A stretch of DNA of 64,000 nt from Druceiella hillmani (taxonomy: Eukaryota > Arthropoda > Insecta > Lepidoptera > Hepialidae): contig JAYKKI010000149.1 of assembly GCA_039881145.1 (NCBI GenBank), positions 682,001-746,000 on the forward strand, in the 5' to 3' direction. This document shows positions 12,091 to 64,000 of the stretch, piece by piece; positions within the stretch are counted from its first letter, which is position 1, and each line of letters begins with the position of its first letter. The position numbers were made by a program, and so were the translations under genes. The notes beneath the pieces were generated by a model that worked only from the letters and a program-made list of their open reading frames with translations, had not been told where the DNA came from and made no database searches.

Positions 12091-12730
12091 ATGCCGGACG
12101 ACAAAATTGAAAACAATAGCGATGCTTTAACTACAACAGTCGCTAGAGTAAGTGTAAATGTGTCTTTTTGGAAACAAGCCCCTGAAAATTTGGTTTCTGT
12201 AACTTAAAACGTAACTTAGAACTGCTAATATTACCGTCGACTAAACCAAATATGATTATGTTGTTAGAACTATTGACACAAACATTTTATCTCAAGTATC
12301 GGATTTGCTTCTTAAAGCAACAGAAACAGATGTATATGATGGTATTAAAACAAGATTAGTCTCACTTTACGCAGACTCTGAAACTAAAAAAACTCAAAAA
12401 CTGTTGAGTGAACGATATATCGAATCGGAACGGTAGATTATGGTGATAAAAACCCATGCAACTGTTATGTGATATGCAAAACTTGGCAGGTGATAGAGTA
12501 ACTGATGCTTTCCCAAAAACCCTTTGGTTACAATGATTTCCACTGCATATGCGCAGCATTTTATCAGCCAGCAAAAATGATCTCATAAATTGTCAGATAT
12601 GGTCAATAAGATTTGGGAGTTAAATCCTGTTAGTCCTCAAATTAATGGTGCTTTTTCTGTCGCAACGGACACTGAAATTATTAAAAAATTACAAAAACGA
12701 GTTAGTGATCTTTCACTACAAGTTGCAGCA
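12091..12730 (+). pseudogene. gag relic
   Basis: An ATG at 12091 starts MPDDKIENNSDAL and continues to about codon 36 before stops. Later fragments in other frames read ATETDVYDGIKTRLVSLYAD and LSERYIESER (about 12315-12435). Near 12538-12640 frames together give the pattern of the gag C-terminal half, HMRSILSASKNDL followed by SDMVNKIWEL. A coiled-coil-like EIIKKLQKRVSDLSLQVAA precedes the break at about 12730. The structural protein would assemble the retrotransposon particle. Several stops and frameshifts make it non-functional. A deletion probably removed the gag end and the protease start. Confidence 0.75.
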
Positions 12731-12759
12731 TAGTCCAAGCGATAAAGTAGATCCCTATT

Positions 12760-13290
12760 ACGTTACAGACCTAAATCAAGGAATCGCAATCACAGCAGTG
12801 CTCGGTTCGGGCACCTCTGTTATTTTCATCAGAAGTTTGGAGACAAAGCATTCAGATGCACTTCTCCCTGTAATAATTGCCGATGTAAATAAGCCAATCA
12901 TAGAAATAGACTTTCTCGCAAATTTCAACCTCCTTGTTGTACCTAAAAACCGAAAATTGATTGATGGTATAACCTTGTTTATAAATAATGGAACTCCTTA
13001 TCTTGGAGGCAATGACAATAAAGCACCAACTCTAAATCTCATTTAAAAACCATACAAACAAATATTTATTGACACCTTTCCAGATCCATTGAAATTTCAC
13101 GTAACCAACAGCAATATCAAACATCATAACATTGAACATTTCTTAGAGACTAAAGGCCCTCCTATCTTTGTTAAAGTTCGAAGATAATCGTTAGAAAAAC
13201 TCAAAGCAGCAAGAAAAGAATTCGATTTCATGTTACAAACCGGGTTATGCAGACCTTCTAAGAGCATTTAGTGCAGCCTACTATACTTAG
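12760..13290 (+). pseudogene. Protease and linker relic of pol
   Basis: The frame 12645-13046 carries ADVNKPIIEIDFLANFNLL and KNRKLIDGITLF, the conserved block after the aspartic protease in arthropod Gypsy elements. The catalytic DTG/DSG is not visible; the upstream part is degraded. After a stop, HHNIEHFLETKGPPIFVKVR and LEKLKAARKEFDFML follow (about 13123-13235), the usual lead-in to RT. Confidence 0.75.
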
Positions 13291-13292
13291 CC

Positions 13293-13754
13293 ATGAAAAA
13301 ATCAGGCGATTGGAGACCTTGTGGAGACTACCGAGCATTGCATAATGTTACCATCCCTGACAATTACATTTTACCATTTTCGACTGATAGCAGCTATATT
13401 CTACATGGTGCAACAAATTTTATTATTTGCAATACAATTTTATTTATTGATCTAATCAAGGTATATCAACAAATTATGGTTGGTCAAGAAGACATTCCAA
13501 AAACGACAATCATCACCCCCTATGAACAGACGTTCCAACGTTTCATGAACAGCGTTCTCCAAGGCTTGAATTTTGTATTCTGTTATTTAGATTATATTCT
13601 TGTAGCTTCTCCGGATGAAAAAACTCACAACCAACACCAACACCTTCATCTAGTTTTTATGAGATTAACAAACTTCATTTTGTGCATCGATACAACGAAA
13701 TGTGCATTGGTACAAGCAATACTTCCATTTCTAGGATACGAAAATATCTGCTGA
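13293..13754 (+). pseudogene. Reverse transcriptase relic of pol
   Basis: A 153-codon frame begins MKKSGDWRPCGDYRALHNVT and continues through IDLIKVYQQI, EDIPKTTIITPYE, TFQRFMNSVLQGLNFVF, CYLDYILVASPDEKTH and LPFLGYE. These are RT blocks in order. Two defects matter. The segment between ITP and TFQRFM, which should carry FxFxxMPFGLxNA, is deleted. The catalytic YxDD box reads YLDY, so the second metal-binding Asp is lost. The enzyme that copied the element's RNA into DNA cannot work. Confidence 0.9.
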
Positions 13755-13799
13755 AGGACTTAAACTTCTTACAACCAAGGTAAAAGAAATTAACAGTTC

Positions 13800-14400
13800 G
13801 GAACCAAAATCGTTTATCAGCTTACGCGGATTTTTGGGGATGGCAAATTCTACCATCGATTTATCTCTAACTGTGCAAAATTACAACAACCCCTGATAAC
13901 ATTACTTGCAGAATAAAGAAGAACAACCGAAAACAGATAAGCTTGACATATGGTACCAGAAACGCTTTTAAAAAACTTAACAAAGCACTCTGCCATGCCA
14001 TTGACTTAAAAGCAGAAATATCGCTGATAACTAATGCTTCAGATACTGCCATCGGAGTCGTCCTGCATCAGATTGAAAACAACGAGAAGCGGCCATGAAG
14101 ATTTTTGTCCAGGTCATTAACGCCAATGCAATAAAAATATAATGCTTACGACCGAGAACTATTAGCCACTTACACGGCCATGAAACACTTCAAACACATA
14201 TTAGAAGGCCGTAATTTCTCTGTATACACGGATCATAAGCCACTAACTTTTGCTTTCCAACAGAACTTTTAGAAGGCTTCCACCAGTCAGTCTAGACAAT
14301 TGTCGTACATCGAAAAATTTACAACGAACATTCTACACATCGATGGAAAGGAAAAAAACTGTGGCAGACGAACTTTCCCGTTTAGATTTTGAAACCATTG
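13800..14400 (+). pseudogene. RT connection and RNase H relic of pol
   Basis: SLRGFLGMANS at about 13819 is the RT-thumb block (usually SLRRFLGMxNFYRRF). The RNase H domain follows. ISLITNASDTAIGVVLHQ at about 14020-14070 corresponds to TDASxxAxGAVL, but the first catalytic Asp is Asn here. YDRELLATYTAMKHFKHILE keeps the catalytic Glu, and SVYTDHKPLTFAF keeps a catalytic Asp (about 14140-14255). After a frameshift, related C-terminal blocks run to about 14400. The separate frame 14250-14510 reads partly out of phase. Confidence 0.85.
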
Positions 14401-14779
14401 AAATTCCATCAGCAATATATTTTAAAAAGTTAGGAAGCTACCAAGAAGGCGAAGATGTTGAAACATGCAAAGAAAACTCTAATTTGAAAATAATTCGGAT
14501 ACCTATATGATTAATAATTCGGATAGATAGTGATTTTACAATATACTGCGACAATTCTATTGATTACAATTGGCCATACATACGTAAATAATTGCGAAAG
14601 TATTTTCACCTGTCCACAGTTTATCACACCTTGGAATAAGTTACTAACTAATGACCAGACGTTTTATTTGGCCCAACATTAACAAAGACTGCCAGCTTTG
14701 GACTAGATCGTATCTAATTTGACAACGATCTAAAGTTCAAAGACATACACAATCACCTCTAAACGACATCAAAGTTTCA

Positions 14780-15640
14780 CTGGAACGTTTTCGACATATT
14801 TACATCGATATCGTTGGACCATTACATTCATGTTAGGGCTTCCGATATTTGTTAACGATAATTGATCGTTTTTCAAGATGGGTTGAAGCAATACAATGGG
14901 TCGACCAATCGGCAGAAACTATTGCAAAAGGCATGATTTAAACCTGGATAGGTCGTTTTGGAACACTTTGCCGTATTATTTCTGATCAAGGTGGATAATT
15001 TGAAAGTGAACTTTTTCTATATTTGAGCAGATATTTTGGCTTTTAGACATCTAGCATTACCGCATATCACCCACAATCAAATTGGTTAATTGAAAGACAA
15101 CATAGAACGATCAAGGCTAGTTTGAGGTGTAATTTGCAACAAAACAATAATTGGGTTGATGCCTTACCATTTGTTCTTCTAAAGATACGCTCTCTGGTCA
15201 AGGAGAAGATTAGATACTTTTCTGCTGAGCTTTTCTATTGCAGCTCCCTCTGTTTACCCGGAGAATTCGTGACCAAGGTCCCTGAAATATCACATTCGGA
15301 TTTAGTTCAGGGGCTGCAAAGAATTATAGGCAGCGTGAAACTTTCTGCAACGACCACTCATGGCAAAAAATCCATTTTCGTTTTAAAAAACACACGTTTT
15401 TATGTACCATAACGCAGCTACTTCATCCTTGCAATCAGTTTATCTTGGTCCTTTTGCTGTTAAATACCGAGTACCAAAATACTTTCATATAGACATAAAG
15501 GGTACTGTCAAAAGGATTTCAACTAACAGAGTGAAAACATGTTTCTTTCTAAATGATCCTCCAAAAGTCACTGGAAATTTCCATGCCCAAAAATGGGAAA
15601 AGTGCTACTACCTCGTGCGTTCTGTCGGAAGGTTTTTTCA
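14780..15640 (+). pseudogene. Integrase relic of pol with intact DD35E spacing
   Basis: One frame carries all three catalytic residues: Asp in YIDIVGPLH (codon 14807-14809), Asp in IISDQGG (14984-14986) and Glu in LIERQHR (15092-15094). There are 35 residues between the second and third, the classic DD35E pattern. DRFSRWVEAI, TAYHPQSN and WVDALPFVLL are also present. Four stop codons interrupt this frame although no frameshift is needed to read it. Downstream, SVYLGPFAVKYRVPKYF and IKGTVKRISTNRVKT (15430-15540) correspond to the chromatin or DNA-binding C-terminal part. The zinc-binding N-terminus upstream of 14780 is too degraded to read. Confidence 0.88.
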
Positions 15641-37964: not shown

Positions 37965-38354
37965 AAAAGGTCTAGCCATTCTTATTTTGATATAAAAACC
38001 CTTATTTTTGTACGATATTTCTTTAAACTGGTTTTTAATCTGCCGTTTATCAAAAGCTAAAAAGGTCAATCTGCGTTTGCTAACATTTTCTTACCATTTT
38101 CATAATTTGTTTATGTTTCAAAAAAATCGCTTACCGACCTAGGTATTTCCTGCAATTTTTGCAACGCTACGCATGTCTGAAAAAAATAATCACAATGAAG
38201 TTTTAAGAAAACTTATTCAATAATGAAAAATTTCCCCCTTAAGGATGCCAGTCTTTCAAAATTTGAAGCAAAAAACCTGATGATCCCGAATGCATCTCGC
38301 TCCCCACAGATTAGCATAATTAAGCACTTATAAATACTTAATATATTTTTTTAT

Positions 38355-38630
38355 ATATTGAATATATTTGGCGTTAATATTGTAGAAATTCATTATTCAC
38401 AATTAAATTAAACTAGTTGGTGTAGTATTATTTCCACTTTCTTTAAGTTCTTTACCACGACCGATGTTTCGTTGTATTACAACATCTTTATGTGGGCTAT
38501 TAGCAAAGATTCTAGCCCACCTGAAGTTATTGTAATGCAATGCCCACCTGAAGATGTTGTAATATAATGAAACATAAGAAAGTAACAAAGAAAGTAGAAA
38601 TAATACTACATCACGTAGTTTCATATTTTT
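38355..38630. repeat. Fold-back element, copy C
   Basis: Left arm and flank (ATATATTTGGCGTTAATATT, then AAACTAGTTGGTGTAGTATT) and right arm (AATACTACATCACGTAGTTT) match the copies at 46441 and 60867. The centre is rearranged, with a second partial CCCACCTGAA unit (38517 and 38546). The hammerhead-like cores are damaged on both strands. The minus-strand one reads AUAAAGA in place of CUGAAGA but keeps GAAAC, a different tetraloop, and GUC followed by GUGG. Confidence 0.85.
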
Positions 38631-38639
38631 TTATATCAA

Positions 38640-45410: not shown

Positions 45411-45866
45411 TATATTAAGAATAGTGTTGAAAATAATTGGAACAATTACCGTACACAAAGCTCGGTGGACGACGTTATATATTTATCTTATCTCATAAAC
45501 TTCTATATTTCTATTCTCTGGTGATAACCCTGTATAAGCTTAATTTAATCTCCTTAGGTTTTAAAGTAATCCACCCCGATAGATGCGGGTGTCCCACATG
45601 TAATTTTATAAGACCCCATTAAAACTCAATAAAAACAACGATAAAAAGTTATGTAAACATGATCTGCGTAAAATTCCAATATTCTATTCGTTTATGATCA
45701 TTTTATGATGATCGGTTTCGTAGGTGAAACGTAAAAGGGAAACAAACAAAAAACTTTCAATTATATTAATTGGAAAGACAAAGTAGTTAATGTTGGTAGT
45801 TACGAAATTATTATCTAAGCAATACATATTTGCAATTTTAATAATTACACACTAATTAACAATTTA

Positions 45867-45974
<108 letters not shown>

Positions 45975-46440
45975 TAATTATGAGAAAAACATTAGAAAAA
46001 ATAAATCAAAGTTAATGAAAACGAATACGACTTATTGAGTATTGACATCCATGTGGAATGACATATACCGAAATATGGTATAAAGTCAATATTAAAAGGA
46101 CATGAAGGCAAGAATAATTTAAAATAAAAAAGAGACAGATTTTCTTTCGAAAATAAATCTTGTAATTTTTCTTTATATTCCATGCATAAAACCAAGCTAC
46201 CATATTTGAAAAATACGAAAGCTACTTTAGAGTGAACTTCAAAACTGCATCTTTGTAGCTTCACCTAACATATACTTTCTATTAAGTAAATAATTAGTCA
46301 TGCGGAAACCAATCTTGGCTAGAATCGATCCTCACGTTGCACGTAGATTTGTTATTTTATATTATAATACTGAAGCAAAAAGTTGTAATTATGTAGTTAC
46401 AGTAATTGTCAAGAAAACTTCAAAAATTTTCATAATAAAC

Positions 46441-46740
46441 TTTATATTGAATATATTTGGAGTTAATTTTGTAGAAATTAATTATTCACCGTTAAATGAA
46501 ACTACGTGGTGTAGTATTATTTCTGCTTTCTTTAATTTCTTTACTACGACCTAGGTTTCGTTGTATTACAACATGTTCAGGTGGGCTATTAGCAAAGATA
46601 TTTGCTAATAGCCCACCTGAAAATGTTGTTACACAACTAAACTTAGGTCGTGATAAAGAAATTAAAGAAAGTAGAAACAATACTACACCACGTAGTTTCA
46701 TTTAAGGGTGGATAAATTTTCTAATTATTTCCGTTTCGTA
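46441..46740. repeat. Fold-back element, copy B (near-perfect palindrome)
   Basis: About 105 bases on each side pair around a 4-base loop GATA at 46597-46600. The innermost arms GGTGGGCTATTAGCAAA and complement (46580-46596, 46601-46617) are exact, and pairing continues with scattered mismatches out to about 46494 and 46703. Weaker similarity to the other copies extends further (ATATTTGGAGTTAATTTTGT on the left). Because it is palindromic, near-identical 69-codon frames appear on both strands (46492-46701 and 46496-46705); neither is a gene. Hammerhead-like cores lie on both arms, but G8 is changed in each. Confidence 0.92.
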
Positions 46741-47059: not shown

Positions 47060-47705
47060 TAAGTATATGGCGATCTCAACAAATATATTAAATAACGATA
47101 GCGAGATATGGCGATCTCAATAAATATGTTGAATAACATTTTTAATATACTTCTCACATATGCATAGTAGCATCTAAATAAATAGGTTAAATAACAACTT
47201 TTAATACACTTTCCATCTTGCATAGTGCGATATGGTTACTCCAATAAATATGTCGAATAAAATTGTTTAATCTACTTCTCTCATATGCATAGTGGAACAT
47301 GGCGAGCTGAATAAACAGGTTAAATAACAATTTTAATGCACTTCTCATCTCGTAAAGTGGAACATGGTTACCTCAAAAAATATGTTAATTACCAATTTTT
47401 AATGTACCTCTCATTCATGTGTATTGATATATGACGATCTCAATAAATATGTTAAATAAAAATTTTAATGCTTTGTAATAATTACAATTTTTATTGCATT
47501 TCCTATACTTGTATAGCGGAAGCTGGCGATCGGAATAAATATGGTAATTAAATAATTTTAATGCTTCTCCCGTACATGAAATTTGGCGGCCTCAATAAAT
47601 ATGGTAAATAAGATTTTTTAATCCACTTCTCACACACACACAGTGGAACATGGAGGTCTTAATAAATATGTTAATTAACTATTTTGGCGCACTTCTTATA
47701 TATGT
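47060..47705. repeat. Degenerate minisatellite, about ten units of 60-67 bp
   Basis: The consensus unit is roughly: ATGGCGATCTCAATAAATAT, then GTTAAATAACAATTTTTAAT, then GCACTTCTCATATATGCATA, then GTGGAAC. Anchors of the unit occur at about 47068, 47107, 47170, 47231, 47298, 47363, 47430, 47523, 47583 and 47649. The first unit is short and the seventh carries an insertion. Units differ by many substitutions and small indels, so the array is old. Confidence 0.9.
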
Positions 47706-49148: not shown

Positions 49149-49174
49149 GTATATATATACATACATACACACAC

Positions 49175-49214
<40 letters not shown>

Positions 49215-49221
49215 GTACATA

Positions 49222-49279
<58 letters not shown>
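49149..49279. repeat. (TA)n/(CA)n compound microsatellite
   Basis: Alternating TA with ACATAC, CACACA and TGTACATA interruptions over about 130 bases. Confidence 0.95.
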
Positions 49280-50799: not shown

Positions 50800-52121
<1,322 letters not shown>

Positions 52122-53073: not shown

Positions 53074-54740
53074 TAGTAGGGGAGCCCGGGATGCTAAATT
53101 TTCAGTTACTAAAGCGTCATGGGGACCTATTGGATTGTGAAGATAATGTCCTAAACCGAAAAAAACTTTATGTAAAGTTTTCGATTTTGTTGGGGAGGGG
53201 AGGGTAATTTTCAAAAATGTAAAAAAAAAACGGTCACATGGAAATACTCGAGCGCGTCAGAAATTCATAGTGTATACGCGCAATGTCATTTTGAAAACCG
53301 AGAGATATTAATCTGACGAGTAACTAGGGGAGGGTGGCCGTAAAAAGGGGTTGAAAAAAAAAAAGTTATTCGAGCGTGTCAGATATTCAGAGGGAATGTT
53401 AAGTGAACACAAGAAAATGTCCTATTTAAATGACTGACGATTTGGATGGGGCCAAAAGTCATAACCGATTTTTGAAAATGTAAAAAAAAACTGTGACCTT
53501 GAAATACTCGAGCGCGTCAGATTTTTATACAGACAGTTCAATTTCATGTCCTAATCAAACTAAATGATAATCTGACAATTATATGAAGGCATATTCTTAA
53601 TCTGACAAATTGAATTTTTTTTTCATTAGTGGATGTAATCAAGCTATATACATATATATAAGTACGATTATATCATTTATTAATATAAAAGTAAATAAAA
53701 CAATATAAAAATGATATTCTCAATATTCATCCTCACTGGATTCATCTTCAGCAAGTTCTGGTGCATCATCACATTCCTGCGCATTTTCCGATTTAATTAC
53801 ATTTTGCCTTAGAAAATCGGACGGTATTTTGATAGCTGTAAAAAGTTTGTAACACGGGGCATGATAGCCATTATTTAAAGATGTATCATTAGAAAGTTCG
53901 ACCGTAGCATAAGCGTTGCTAGATTTTCTTTGAACTGGTTTCACTTTACGATACTTTAAAATAGTTTGACATTTTTTTAAAGTTTCTGGAGTAAACTTTT
54001 TAATTTTTTCACATGTTTCATTTCCACAAAATACACATTTCAAACTTAAATTACTCATTATTGTAACTTGTACATTACTCATTATTGTAATTGTACTTAT
54101 TACATTTAATTCACAAATTTATTTTTAGACACAACAAACAAATCAAAACGTCGTACATCTACAATAACAAACACGTCATTCTGATCAGCTGAGATGGCGT
54201 CATGGCGGCAGACGGTAGTGTGGGGATGGTATGAGAGAGTAAGAGATAGAGAAAGAATGAGAAGGAACGAGAGACGCGGAGTGGGAAACACATAGTTCTT
54301 AGCAGCTGTACGCTCCACACTTTATTTATGGTTTTAGCTACATCTCCCCATGAAAATCGTCAGATTATATATTTCCCGTAATCCTTAAAGGATTTCCTTC
54401 AAAATAAAAAAAATTCAATCGCGCTCGAGTATTTCGAGGCGAAGTTTTTTTTTACATCCTTATGACTCGCCAATTTCCTTATGCCACGCTCAAATCGTCA
54501 GATTATTGAAATATACACTGTTTTGCATGTACTTAACATACATTGTCTTAATCTGACGCGCTCGAGTTTTTCTGAGGATCGATTTTTTTATACCAATCTG
54601 ACGGGCTGCCCTCAACGCACGCCCCTATATTAAGGGTTCATATATGGTAGGGATACATTACAGGGTACAAAGTTTCTCCCCATATGATTTTCTGACGCGC
54701 TCAAGTAACGCGCAAAATCCCCGCTTGGGCTCCCCTAGTA
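53074..54740. mobile_element. DNA transposon with TIRs, subterminal repeats and 5-bp target duplication
   Basis: The element spans 53079-54735. It starts GGGGAGCCCGGG and ends with the complement GGGCTCCCC. Inside, the ends continue to pair imperfectly (AAATTTTCAGTTACTAAAGCG versus a left-reading GATTTTGCGCGTTACTTGAGCG, quoted in parts). TAGTA flanks it on both sides (53074-53078, 54736-54740), a 5-bp target duplication. A motif CTCGAGCGCGTCAGA occurs inward of the left end at 53246, 53369 (variant) and 53507. Its complement TCTGACGCGCTCGAG appears at 54419 (partial), 54552, 54597 (variant) and 54691 (variant) at the right. TCTGAC cores recur elsewhere within. One short ORF lies on the minus strand. 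I do not recognise the superfamily. It is probably non-autonomous. Confidence 0.8.
53720..54082 (-). CDS. Small zinc-binding-type protein of the TIR element
   Basis: A 120-codon frame without interruption, inside the transposon and on its minus strand. The N-terminal half carries CVFCGNETCEKIKKFTPETL, a CxxC pair, and later NGYHAPCYKLFTAI, an HxxC pair, which together would suit one zinc ion. This module is similar to the N-terminus of transposon-derived proteins seen in insects. The C-terminus is strongly acidic (DDAPELAEDESSEDEY). No DDE catalytic region follows, so it is either an internally deleted transposase or a separate accessory protein. Two in-frame Met codons eight residues apart make the start uncertain; the second, just before SNLSLKC, sits in a locally duplicated TTACTCATTATTGTAA. 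An intact frame in such decayed surroundings suggests a fairly recent insertion. Substrate and partners are unknown. Confidence 0.6.
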   Translation of the reverse strand: MSNVQVTIMSNLSLKCVFCGNETCEKIKKFTPETLKKCQTILKYRKVKPVQRKSSNAYATVELSNDTSLNNGYHAPCYKLFTAIKIPSDFLRQNVIKSENAQECDDAPELAEDESSEDEY

Positions 54741-60637: not shown

Positions 60638-60866
60638 GCTGTATCCAGCTCAATGTCACCATCCTAAGTCTTCAAACGATCATTCAGTTTGTTCGTGAGA
60701 CCGGGATTTATGGGACGGAAGCCATCAAGTCAATGAAAGACGACTGAATAAATAATACACCATAACGCATCGATATTTTATGTCGTTAACACTGCATTAC
60801 TTCCACAATAAAATTCATATTATGAAATAACGCGACCTTTAACATATCTCGAACAACAATTATTAT

Positions 60867-61030
60867 CAAAGATTCATCTTTGCTAATATCCCACCTGAAG
60901 ATGTTGTAATACAACGAAACCTAGGTCGTGGTAAAGAAATTAAAGAAAGTAGAAAGAATACTACATCACGTAGTTTCATTTAATTGTGAATAATAAATTT
61001 CTGCAAAATTAACGCCAAATATATTCAATT
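60867..61030 (+). repeat. Fold-back element, copy A (single arm)
   Basis: It begins at the palindrome centre (CAAAGAT, TC, ATCTTTG at 60867-60882) and continues along one arm only. It matches the right arms at 46601 and 38530 and then the outer flank TTAACGCCAAATATATTCAA. The left arm is missing, apparently truncated. This copy has the best-preserved hammerhead-like core of the three. Confidence 0.85.
60891..60931 (+). ncRNA. Hammerhead ribozyme-like motif (type I, short stem III)
   Basis: Read as RNA: helix I strand CCAC (60891-60894), then core CUGAAGA (60895-60901), matching C3-U4-G5-A6-N7-G8-A9. One extra U (60902) follows. Helix II is GUUGU/ACAAC with loop AAU (60903-60915), then core GAA (60916-60918). 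Helix III is AC (60919-60920), loop CUAG, GU (60925-60926). The cleavage triplet GUC ends at C17 (60927), and the helix I strand GUGG (60928-60931) pairs with CCAC. All conserved catalytic-core bases fit. A self-cleaving RNA of this type would be expected to cut after 60927. The two-base-pair helix III is like metazoan retroelement hammerheads, some of which act as dimers. Oddities: the extra base before helix II and a helix I of only 4 bp before an interruption. Activity is not shown. Confidence 0.6.
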
Positions 61031-64000
61031 ATTATCAAGTTAAAACACAAATATAACTAAATATTTTTGGGTTTCAAAACGGAATATTATAATTTAAGAG
61101 TGAAATATAATCATATTTCAAACCGAAATATATTCATATTTTGTTTTTTGGGTAATTAATATAAGGTACATTAATTACCCATTAGTATACCTAATTCAAA
61201 TAAAATTTGATTTCTCAACTTCTATACATTTAACCTACCATTTGTGAGGTATATGATCTACAAGACCGTAAATTTTTGTGAAACTAATTATATAATTACT
61301 TAATAAATTGTTAGATTTTAATTCGTATATTCCTTCCACCGATCCTTGTAATTTGTATTCTGCTAATTGGTGAATAATGTATTTAGATCTAATCGACATA
61401 CACATTATTACACCCAAATCTTTTGCCGTATTCATATTTTAAAAAAAATTGTTAACAAGAAGGATCACAATTTTACCACAATCTTTCTTCTTTCGTTTTA
61501 TTTTCATATTTAACATTTATTATAAAAACAACTACTTTAATATTTATGTATCTGTTGTACTTAAGGCTCAATTAAACTTAGCTCTACAAAGTAGATGATT
61601 AGAGCTATATATATAGAAATATTAAAATCTTGTTTTGCAGAGCAATTTCAATAAATTTTAATACAATTATTAATAACTTTTGTAGGCAAAGAATCAGGTA
61701 TTCAACTGATATTATAAGATAATTATATTAACACCAATTTAAATTTCAAAATGACCATTCATATCTCCCAAAATATTTAAATAAAGCGACGGAATATAAA
61801 TGTTCTACATTATATTCGCGTAAATGCTTACATTTTTTATCATATTTTCGGTGTAAAATTTAAGGGCTTTATGTGGAAAAGTGAACAGAAAAATGTGGTT
61901 AAAATAATTCTGTCATTGTCTCTCTTGGCTTAATTTCAACCTCCCTCCTCCATTTCAACCTTATACGGTGGCGCCCTTGTGTATATTTTATAAATTTATG
62001 TTTGTAAACAAGATTCTTGTAATAATATCCCGGGAGTGAAAGAGCTTTTCTGTTAACTCAATCCTCTTTTGGATCAACAAGCTTTCATGAGTTGCCTTGT
62101 ATTTATGTAGCGCCTTGTGCTTGACATTAAACGTATTTTTAAAATAACCTTGTTTGTTTCTTTCCATAATTTTCTCAATATTAAAATATTTTCTACTAAC
62201 TTATAACTATATGAACAATATTTTCAATTCGATATATTTTGCTATTTTTTAAACTGTACAACGTTTGAAAACAATGTACAAATTATTAATGTGTTATGTT
62301 AGAGAAAGTGTGAAATTTTATTATCATTAAACAATAATAATCGTTGTATTAAAATCATATACTGTACTTTCGATACATTGTAAGAGATTATTTACTACTC
62401 ATATTTGGGACGATTCTCATTAAGTTTTCATGAGAACTGAACCTATGGGATTTTTCCTTCCTTTTGCTTACTGAAAAATTCCAAAACATTGGTTGAAACT
62501 GTTTGAACAATGAAGGAGGATAAATCAATTGTTTAATTCGTCTTTTTATCCTTTTTGTTTTGTAAATTCTCTTCCTTTTAACATTAATATTTTTTTAATA
62601 TAAATTCTTGATACCAACATAACAAGTTTATAATTAGTACAGACATTCATTTCTCAAAATAAAGGAAAAGGTAAAAAATAACAGTATTTCTTTTGATTAA
62701 AGTTTTAAATTAAACATTGAGCGAATATCAGTCTTATCATTTTGAGTTAAAAAAAATAATTTATTTCGCTTATTCTACCAGTTCTCAAAATTCATTTTAC
62801 ATTTTATCTCCTGGTGAGTTAAATTTTCAATTAATCTAGAATCTAAAGAGTTAAATAGAGAAAGAATTTTAAATAGTAATTAAATAGGAAAAAATAATTA
62901 AATCAGATAAAATAGCAAAATTTCTGATATAGAGAAAAGAATGGCAAAACTAAAATAGGATTGGGCAGAGTATTAAGGCAGAAAAGTCGACACGTTGAAA
63001 TGAAAGGCATACTTTAATGGAAGATCTTGCTAAATTAGAGGGAAAAAGATTAAAAAAAATACAAATGAAGTGCAAGGACGATATTTAAAAAGTGGTAGTT
63101 AGCAATTTTATTTTTGTTTATACTAAGAGACAAAAATAGCGGGGTTCGTAGTAAACAATGAAAGGCAAAACAAAAGAAGTGAACTAAAAATGAAAAGAAA
63201 AAATTTTACCTTTAACTTTATTTTTGTTCTTTTCATTCCTTATTATTTGTCGTACCGGTGTGTCTAATTAAGACTTTTTGTTATTGTTTTTTTAGGAGCA
63301 CAATAAATTAGTTACTTAATTAGTTTAGTTTCTCCAATTATTTTGGGTATATCACTGGAAGAAATAGGTCTTTGTAACAATAAATTCTGTATTAGAAATA
63401 AAAAATTTGGAAAATTTATAAATGTTTTTAAAAAATCCTGTCGATTCCGACTGTTGCAGCTTTTTATACAGTTTTAGAAATGAAACAATAAGTTTCACGA
63501 GATAACGAGATGTTATACGCATTTACATTACATGTGTTTGAATAGATGCAAATCAACGTTTGGAGTACGCTTGTTATAGTTTTGCAAACCTTTAGCAAAT
63601 TTCAAATATTTTATTTGTCGAGGCAATTATCTTTGTAAAATATATGAACATTTTAATTTTATTCAATTTTTAATCGAGATTAGCAAAGTAATACCTAGGT
63701 TTCTATTACTTTTGTGATATGGCAGACTTTGTCGTGGTTAGAGCTGTGAGGTATAAAATTTACTTCGAATGACAAACGAGAGCGGTGACATCTTATCGTA
63801 CTCATGTGAGTAGATTCTAGAATCAGCTCAATTTAGATGTACCTGATTAATCCTAACATTTTTATTGCGGTAGTGAGTTTCTTTGTTGGTCAAACGTTCT
63901 GCTTTCACGCCTCTAAATCAGGTCAAATTATAAAGGAAAATAGGCAAAAAATATACTATAAGTTTTATCAAAAACTTTTTCAATTAAAGATAATATCCTA
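61031..64000. other. AT-rich DNA, no gene seen
   Basis: A 12-bp inverted repeat TGGGTAATTAAT lies at 61149-61160 and 61170-61181. A 66-codon minus-strand frame at 61235-61435 has no motif. Nothing else recognised to the window end. Confidence 0.5.

Follow-up and report, generated by a model that had tools for sequence, protein, structure and literature searches.

A hammerhead-type motif with one extra U in a single copy of a short repeat of probable Penelope-like origin

A hammerhead-type motif with every core base in place lies at positions 60891-60931 (plus strand) of the window, that is, the whole 64-kb stretch of DNA that was analysed, and it is real in one copy (copy A) of a repeated unit of 154 nt. 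The motif is a putative self-cleaving RNA. The unit that carries it is probably an old remnant resembling the pseudo-LTRs (pLTRs) of Penelope-like elements (PLEs), devoid of an ORF of its own and moved by PLE machinery. A hammerhead in a PLE-type repeat is a further case of a known association rather than a new kind.

Hammerhead motif in copy A

Read directly on the plus strand, copy A contains C3 U4 G5 A6 N7 G8 A9, G12 A13 A14, the A15.1-U16.1 pair and H17, surrounded by three helices of 4, 5 and 2 bp, plus one extra U after A9. The parts are as follows, all on the plus strand.

60891..60931: hammerhead motif, core intact (reading, descriptor scan, two covariance models)
C60891-C60894 / G60928-G60931: helix I, CCAC/GUGG (direct reading)
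60895-60901: core stretch CUGAAGA (direct reading)
60902: extra U between A9 and helix II (direct reading; same extra U in viral hammerheads)
60903-60907 / 60911-60915: helix II, GUUGU/ACAAC, loop AAU (direct reading)
60916-60918: core stretch GAA (direct reading)
A60919-U60926 and C60920-G60925: helix III, 2 bp, loop CUAG at 60921-60924 (direct reading)
60919..60926: ACCUAGGU, helix III with its CUAG loop, a self-complementary 8-mer that may allow a dimer
60927: C17, with the predicted cut directly 3' of C60927

A preliminary description of the window had recognized the hammerhead consensus here, with an extra U between A9 and helix II as its single deviation, and both statements hold, the consensus base for base and the deviation as U60902. 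A strict descriptor (helices of at least 4, 4 and 2 bp, with 0 or 1 extra base) run over both strands of the 64-kb window returned 60891-60931 as its sole match, and only 1 of 200 dinucleotide shuffles held a match (mean 0.005). With a laxer descriptor (stems of 3, 3 and 1 bp and a longer helix III loop) the site was still the sole match in the window; since 25 of 200 shuffles then also held a match, the claim that the motif exceeds chance rests on the strict form.

The motif also overlaps an ATG at 60901-60903, which begins at A9 and takes its T from the extra U60902. The reading frame shuts after two codons (ATG TTG TAA), and the predicted cut lies 27 nt downstream of this ATG.

Viral hammerheads with the same extra U

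An extra U at this place is said to be able to raise the cleavage rate, a finding attributed to De la Pena and Flores in 2001. To judge the negative Rfam result described below, IMG/VR was scanned for CTGANGATG...CGAAAC...GTCGTG(G), with the pairing of helices II and III left free, and a second scan fixed three helix I pairs by their letters. Together, the two scans with the extra-U pattern gave 39 matches in 35 loci, and all three helices are formed in 35 of these matches (at least 4 pairs in helix I, 4 in helix II and 5 in helix III). Dropping the other four (L004, L008, L012 and L024) and nine duplicate sequences left 26 distinct hammerheads. Standard pairs make up 99.0% of their 390 pair cells, and both partners have changed in 78 cells, as against 18.0 in shuffles. 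The formation of three helices in 35 of 39 matches, together with the pairing and covariation in the 26 distinct sequences, indicates that viral contigs contain hammerheads with just this extra U. Judged by these sequences, the extra U after A9 is not disqualifying for a hammerhead. The view of the preliminary description that an extra base is tolerated there is borne out by these viral matches. The plus hammerhead of CChMVd has an extra A at that place according to a figure legend (PMC3705267).

Like copy A, these viral type I hammerheads (L001-L035 except the four loci just named) have the extra U after A9, CCAC/GUGG adjoining the core and CGAAAC, letters that belonged to the search pattern. 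Unlike copy A, they have longer, co-varying helices II and III, and for 24 of 26 the hammerhead pairs are present in the best fold predicted for the monomer. They show no sign of shared descent with the unit in the window, and patterns specific to the window had zero matches in viral contigs or prokaryote genomes.

A covariance model built from the extra-U viral hammerheads (R1) placed 60890-60932 at the top of the window (31.7 bits, E 7.5e-06), with an arm of a second copy of the repeat (BR, see below) as runner-up (13.5 bits, E 0.33). Run unfiltered over 38-64 kb, the same model gave five matches, the best four being arms A, CR, BL and BR of the repeat (31.7, 18.3, 17.4 and 13.5 bits). A second model (R2) was made from viral hammerheads lacking the extra U; 52 matches yielded 30 that passed the pairing count, and removal of one by the length limit and of five duplicates left 24 distinct sequences. 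Its single match in the window is the copy A site (26.8 bits, E 9.6e-05), where it places the U as an insertion. It should be noted that the viral search patterns borrowed letters from the window (CAC/GTG and CGAAAC, and the U for the first set), which makes the E-values of R1 and R2 optimistic; this bias does not touch the shuffle test with the strict descriptor.

Several minor observations were made on the viral contigs. Two of them (L016 and L032) are matched by both the with-U and the without-U patterns. By eye, some of the 22 no-U matches that failed the pairing count resemble hammerheads whose helix II has a bulged A, and in L016, L036, L040, L046, L052, L053, L056, L060 and L071 a bulged A seemingly comes after G10.1 at the start of helix II (GAGC...), another deviation at the same boundary. 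Other small ribozymes are found above Rfam gathering scores in L005 (two Pistol ribozymes) and in L006 (one Pistol ribozyme and a type-P5 twister ribozyme).

Rfam searches

An Rfam hammerhead search of the window, put forward as a check in the preliminary description, was negative: no hammerhead was reported at the gathering score in the 64-kb window, nor at E<=10 in the 401 nt around the motif, where only three unrelated families appeared. This silence is weak evidence, since viral loci with complete hammerheads also go unreported. At the gathering score Rfam reported no hammerhead in 8 viral loci, 6 of them with a complete extra-U hammerhead, or in 11 further viral loci holding hammerheads with and without the U, 10 of which have at least one that is complete by pairing count. 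Hence, a negative Rfam result at the gathering score says little about hammerheads of the layout seen in copy A.

At E<=10, three of the seven no-U hammerheads of L032, L070 and L073 appear (E 0.083, 1.9 and 1.9), and none of the three complete extra-U hammerheads of L013, L028 and L032 does. The extra U may lower the Rfam score and is not the sole cause of the silence; an explanation by the extra U alone was rejected because hammerheads without it also go unreported at the gathering score.

The carrier unit and its copies

By unit alignment, the carrier unit spans 154 nt from ATCTTTGC to TTCAAT. It occurs at three places in the window, and its arms and flanking duplications are listed below, with the strand of each arm.

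60876..61029, plus: copy A, single pLTR-like unit of 154 nt (unit alignment), preceded by a few nt of an inverted arm, AGAT at 60870-60873
60857..60869: left 13-nt flanking duplication of copy A (duplication search)
61026..61038: right 13-nt flanking duplication of copy A, overlapping the unit end by 4 nt
46446..46599, minus: left (long) arm of copy B, BL; motif at 46543-46585 with G8->C
46598..46711, plus: right (short) arm of copy B, BR; motif at 46612-46654 with G8->A and G12->U
46435..46446, partner 46712-46723: possible degenerate flanking duplication of copy B (10/12 identical, P 0.03; exact match P 0.35, not significant)
38357..38510, minus: long arm of copy C, CR; motif at 38454-38496 with C3->A and G5->A
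38513..38622, plus: short arm of copy C, CL; 27-bp direct duplication at 38515-38569; lacks the GUC side of the motif
38343..38356: left 14-nt flanking duplication of copy C (duplication search)
38623..38636: right 14-nt flanking duplication of copy C (duplication search)

Copies B and C each consist of two units standing head-to-head with a palindromic junction and with their arms touching, and copy A has a rudiment of this arrangement only. The arms are unequal, one being shorter by about 40 nt in copy B and by 50-52 nt in copy C. Perfect flanking duplications were found for copy A (13 nt) and copy C (14 nt), each reached in 0 of 1000 random placements, and an exact one was not found for copy B. 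The A+T content of these duplications is 85% for copy A and 100% for copy C, and it is 85-100% over the flanking stretches of all three copies. The 27-bp duplication in the short arm of copy C is a copy of the 5' half of the hammerhead.

Between the duplications, copy A holds 154 nt and copy C 266 nt. An ORF with reverse transcriptase (RT) and GIY-YIG is absent between the pLTRs, copies A and C being bounded by their duplications and too short, and no GIY-YIG was found in the 10 scanned of the 24 window ORFs of at least 95 aa, among which there is only one RT. In view of this lack of an RT/GIY-YIG ORF, the copies are filed as a non-autonomous remnant derived from PLEs and not as a PLE. No published account of this family of 154-nt units was found in the open-access literature.

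Arms at the same locus are not each other's closest relatives: identity is 89.8% between the B arms, 80.0% between the C arms and 92.9% between A and the left arm of B. One A is private to the two C arms and one G to the two B arms, and A and CL have a T in common. That arms of one locus are no closer than those of other loci counts against one template per insertion. Relative to the ATG, long arms end at +129 and short arms at about +77 to +89. At the other side, the start lies 52 nt upstream of the predicted cut in four of the five arms, which implies that their templates lacked a 5' end made by the ribozyme, and the fifth (CL) begins about 10 nt later.

Conservation of the core and predicted folding

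The arms of copies B and C now carry cores that are broken by sequence: BL lacks G8, BR lacks G8 and G12, and CR lacks C3 and G5. The change in BL, G8->C, is the same as the G8C change that alone abolishes the hammerhead of an Anolis PLE (PMC11167929). The preliminary description had taken copy C as a sign that the structure matters, since the loop there reads AUCG with AC, GUC and GUGG kept. Those letters are indeed present, but the same arm has lost C3 and G5, its loop change destroys the palindrome needed for a dimer, and compensatory changes were found in 0 of 11 helix pairs across the four arms (nine pairs invariant, two broken in one arm each). This part of the earlier interpretation is therefore abandoned.

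These data bear directly on the first alternative to be weighed, in which the hammerhead is a mere relic or coincidence that never cleaved in this family, the carrier being a PLE remnant or some other repeat. The broken core in all three other alignable arms and the absence of compensatory change are in its favor, as is the variability of the core, whose cells differ as often (5/33) as those of the unit outside the motif (27/299, P 0.34), which means that the core enjoys no protection. Perreault et al. have also described repeats with cryptic mutant hammerheads (PMC3088659). Against it, copy A combines every core base with three helices, every base that is broken in the core of one arm is the consensus base in the remaining arms, and paired cells differ less (2/66) than unpaired cells of the motif (10/57, P 0.012), although the comparison of paired cells with the unit outside the motif gives P 0.13.

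Predicted folding adds a further point for this alternative, as the best fold of the copy A monomer is another hairpin, at -8.8 versus -4.8 kcal/mol for the hammerhead (tertiary contacts lie outside the model); in that hairpin, AGGU of helix III is paired with letters of the core. Taking both sides together, we regard a relic or coincidence as quite improbable.

Two strands of copy A are predicted to form a double hammerhead at -25.0 kcal/mol, compared with -26.0 kcal/mol for the best co-fold, tertiary contacts again lying outside the model. The self-complementary ACCUAGGU could permit such a double hammerhead, and by these folding models cleavage, if there is any, would most likely proceed as a dimer through it. 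Dimeric cleavage with a weak or palindromic helix III is reported for amphibian type I motifs, and it is described as possible for PLE hammerheads (PMC6155905, PMC7229834, PMC7761336). In copies B and C, a transcript across both arms is predicted to form a long duplex (-165.0 kcal/mol for B and -92.9 kcal/mol for C), which would compete with any hammerhead.

Likeness to Penelope-like elements and possible origin

The motif, the head-to-head arms, their unequal outer ends and the duplications of copies A and C are observed in the window. A PLE-derived carrier is favored on the basis of the motif statistics, the head-to-head unequal arms, the duplications of A and C and published traits of PLEs. 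The guess of a Penelope-related pseudo-LTR, made in the preliminary description, thereby gains independent anatomical support from the head-to-head arms, the tail and the duplications.

Penelope elements of Adineta vaga are reported to have inverted pLTRs that are mostly head-to-head, with palindromes at the junctions and an inverted pLTR shorter by 37 bp, as well as an optional tail of 31 bp and duplications of 8, 9 and 10 bp (PMC3846280). The window copies likewise have head-to-head units, a palindromic junction, one shorter arm, a tail of similar size and short target duplications. They differ in that the Adineta pLTRs described mostly bound an RT/endonuclease ORF or captured DNA, whereas the window arms touch directly or one is nearly absent.

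For the Poseidon PLE of Anolis carolinensis, both target strands are reported to be cut and extended at AT-rich targets, with a tail of 30-40 bp between two start sites of reverse transcription, which begins 111-118 bp into the ORF (PMC11167929). According to the same source, the ORF begins at stem II of the hammerhead, C3 and G8 precede the start codon, and the cut lies 26 bp downstream, compared with 27 nt in copy A. Copy A resembles it in having a minimal type I hammerhead whose helix III is weak and which spans an ATG where helix II begins, again with C3 and G8 before the ATG, and the position of the ATG at A9 is apparently as in the Anolis element. The window unit shares the AT-rich targets, the optional tail and ends that lie downstream of the ATG. 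Unlike Poseidon, which has an ORF, copy A has none (the frame closes after ATG TTG), and its helix III is of 2 bp with a palindromic loop.

These parallels suggest a pathway in which a PLE protein, acting in trans, would cleave an AT-rich target on both strands, and each DNA end would prime cDNA synthesis at one of two sites within the RNA. Joining of the two cDNAs 5' end to 5' end would then yield a head-to-head palindrome (as in B and C, with a few nt in A), one arm would gain the extra tail, the target would be duplicated at the flanks, and the hammerhead would have belonged to the source RNA. Two-sided priming and 5'-end joining would explain the head-to-head arms, the unequal ends and the duplications together. 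PLE machinery and two-sided priming are what we infer as most likely from the anatomy and the Anolis biochemistry, and any cleavage is putative. Hammerhead mutants of the Anolis element leave insertion in vitro unaffected (PMC11167929), a result with which the evidence from the copies is in line, and the role of the hammerhead in PLEs is called unknown in PMC7761336. For the head-to-head arrangement itself, the Adineta paper favors self-priming on an antisense template (PMC3846280), a route that may also apply here.

Some observations count against a PLE origin: no PLE protein gene was found in the scanned ORFs of the window, the two arms of a locus are no more alike than arms of different loci, copy B lacks an exact duplication, and the tail of copy C is over-long, its 50-52 nt exceeding the 30-40 nt published for PLEs (that of copy B is about 40 nt).

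Another alternative is a metazoan non-LTR retrozyme, a small repeat with a type I hammerhead that would spread as circular RNA and be copied by a PLE or LINE. Its small size and type I hammerhead agree with the unit, and retrozymes of 170-400 nt are reported in many invertebrates, insects included (PMC7229834). Hammerheads of amphibian and other metazoan retrozymes are also described there as having, like copy A, a very weak helix III with a palindromic tetraloop cap, those of amphibians acting as dimers. However, metazoan retrozymes are tandem repeats (PMC7229834), and no direct tandem units bounded by hammerheads were found in 38-64 kb, where the only tandem repeat within a copy is the 27-bp duplication of copy C; moreover, the four arms that begin 52 nt upstream of the cut do not begin at it. 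We consider a retrozyme highly improbable.

The least probable of the alternatives is a fold-back or MITE-type DNA transposon with terminal inverted repeats and an incidental or hitch-hiking hammerhead, since the near-perfect palindrome of copy B and the short flanking duplications, which would suit it, are outweighed by arm outer ends that mismatch by 40-52 nt, by duplications of varying length (13 and 14 nt), by the perfect 13-nt duplication of a copy A that is essentially one arm, and by matching terminal inverted repeats not being seen at both outer ends, which are unequal in B and C with a single arm in A.

Within the preferred reading of a PLE-derived remnant, a more specific version can be proposed, although we think it rather unlikely: a self-standing, ORF-less family of pLTRs only, whose copying in trans by PLE protein would be primed on each strand of the target to give head-to-head palindromes with one tailed arm, and whose RNA could act as a double hammerhead joined through the palindrome and bearing the extra U. 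If true, such a pLTR-only family would be the PLE counterpart of SINEs and MITEs.

Other features of the window

Decayed pieces of a gypsy-type LTR retrotransposon lie at 12624-15412, including an RT domain at 13272-13754 that is of gypsy type by its relatives (gag-pol proteins included, from several animals) and a weak integrase match at 15047-15412. An ORF of 132 aa at 53720-54118 (minus strand) matches no Pfam family above the cut-off and has 13 relatives, of which the two with a species name both come from the ladybird Henosepilachna; identity is 69-70% to relatives in H. vigintioctopunctata and in unnamed sequence sets. At 47114-47471 there is a diverged tandem array whose units measure about 66 and 132 bp, and long TA/AT microsatellites are present at 45865-45972, 49150-49279 and 51996-52121.
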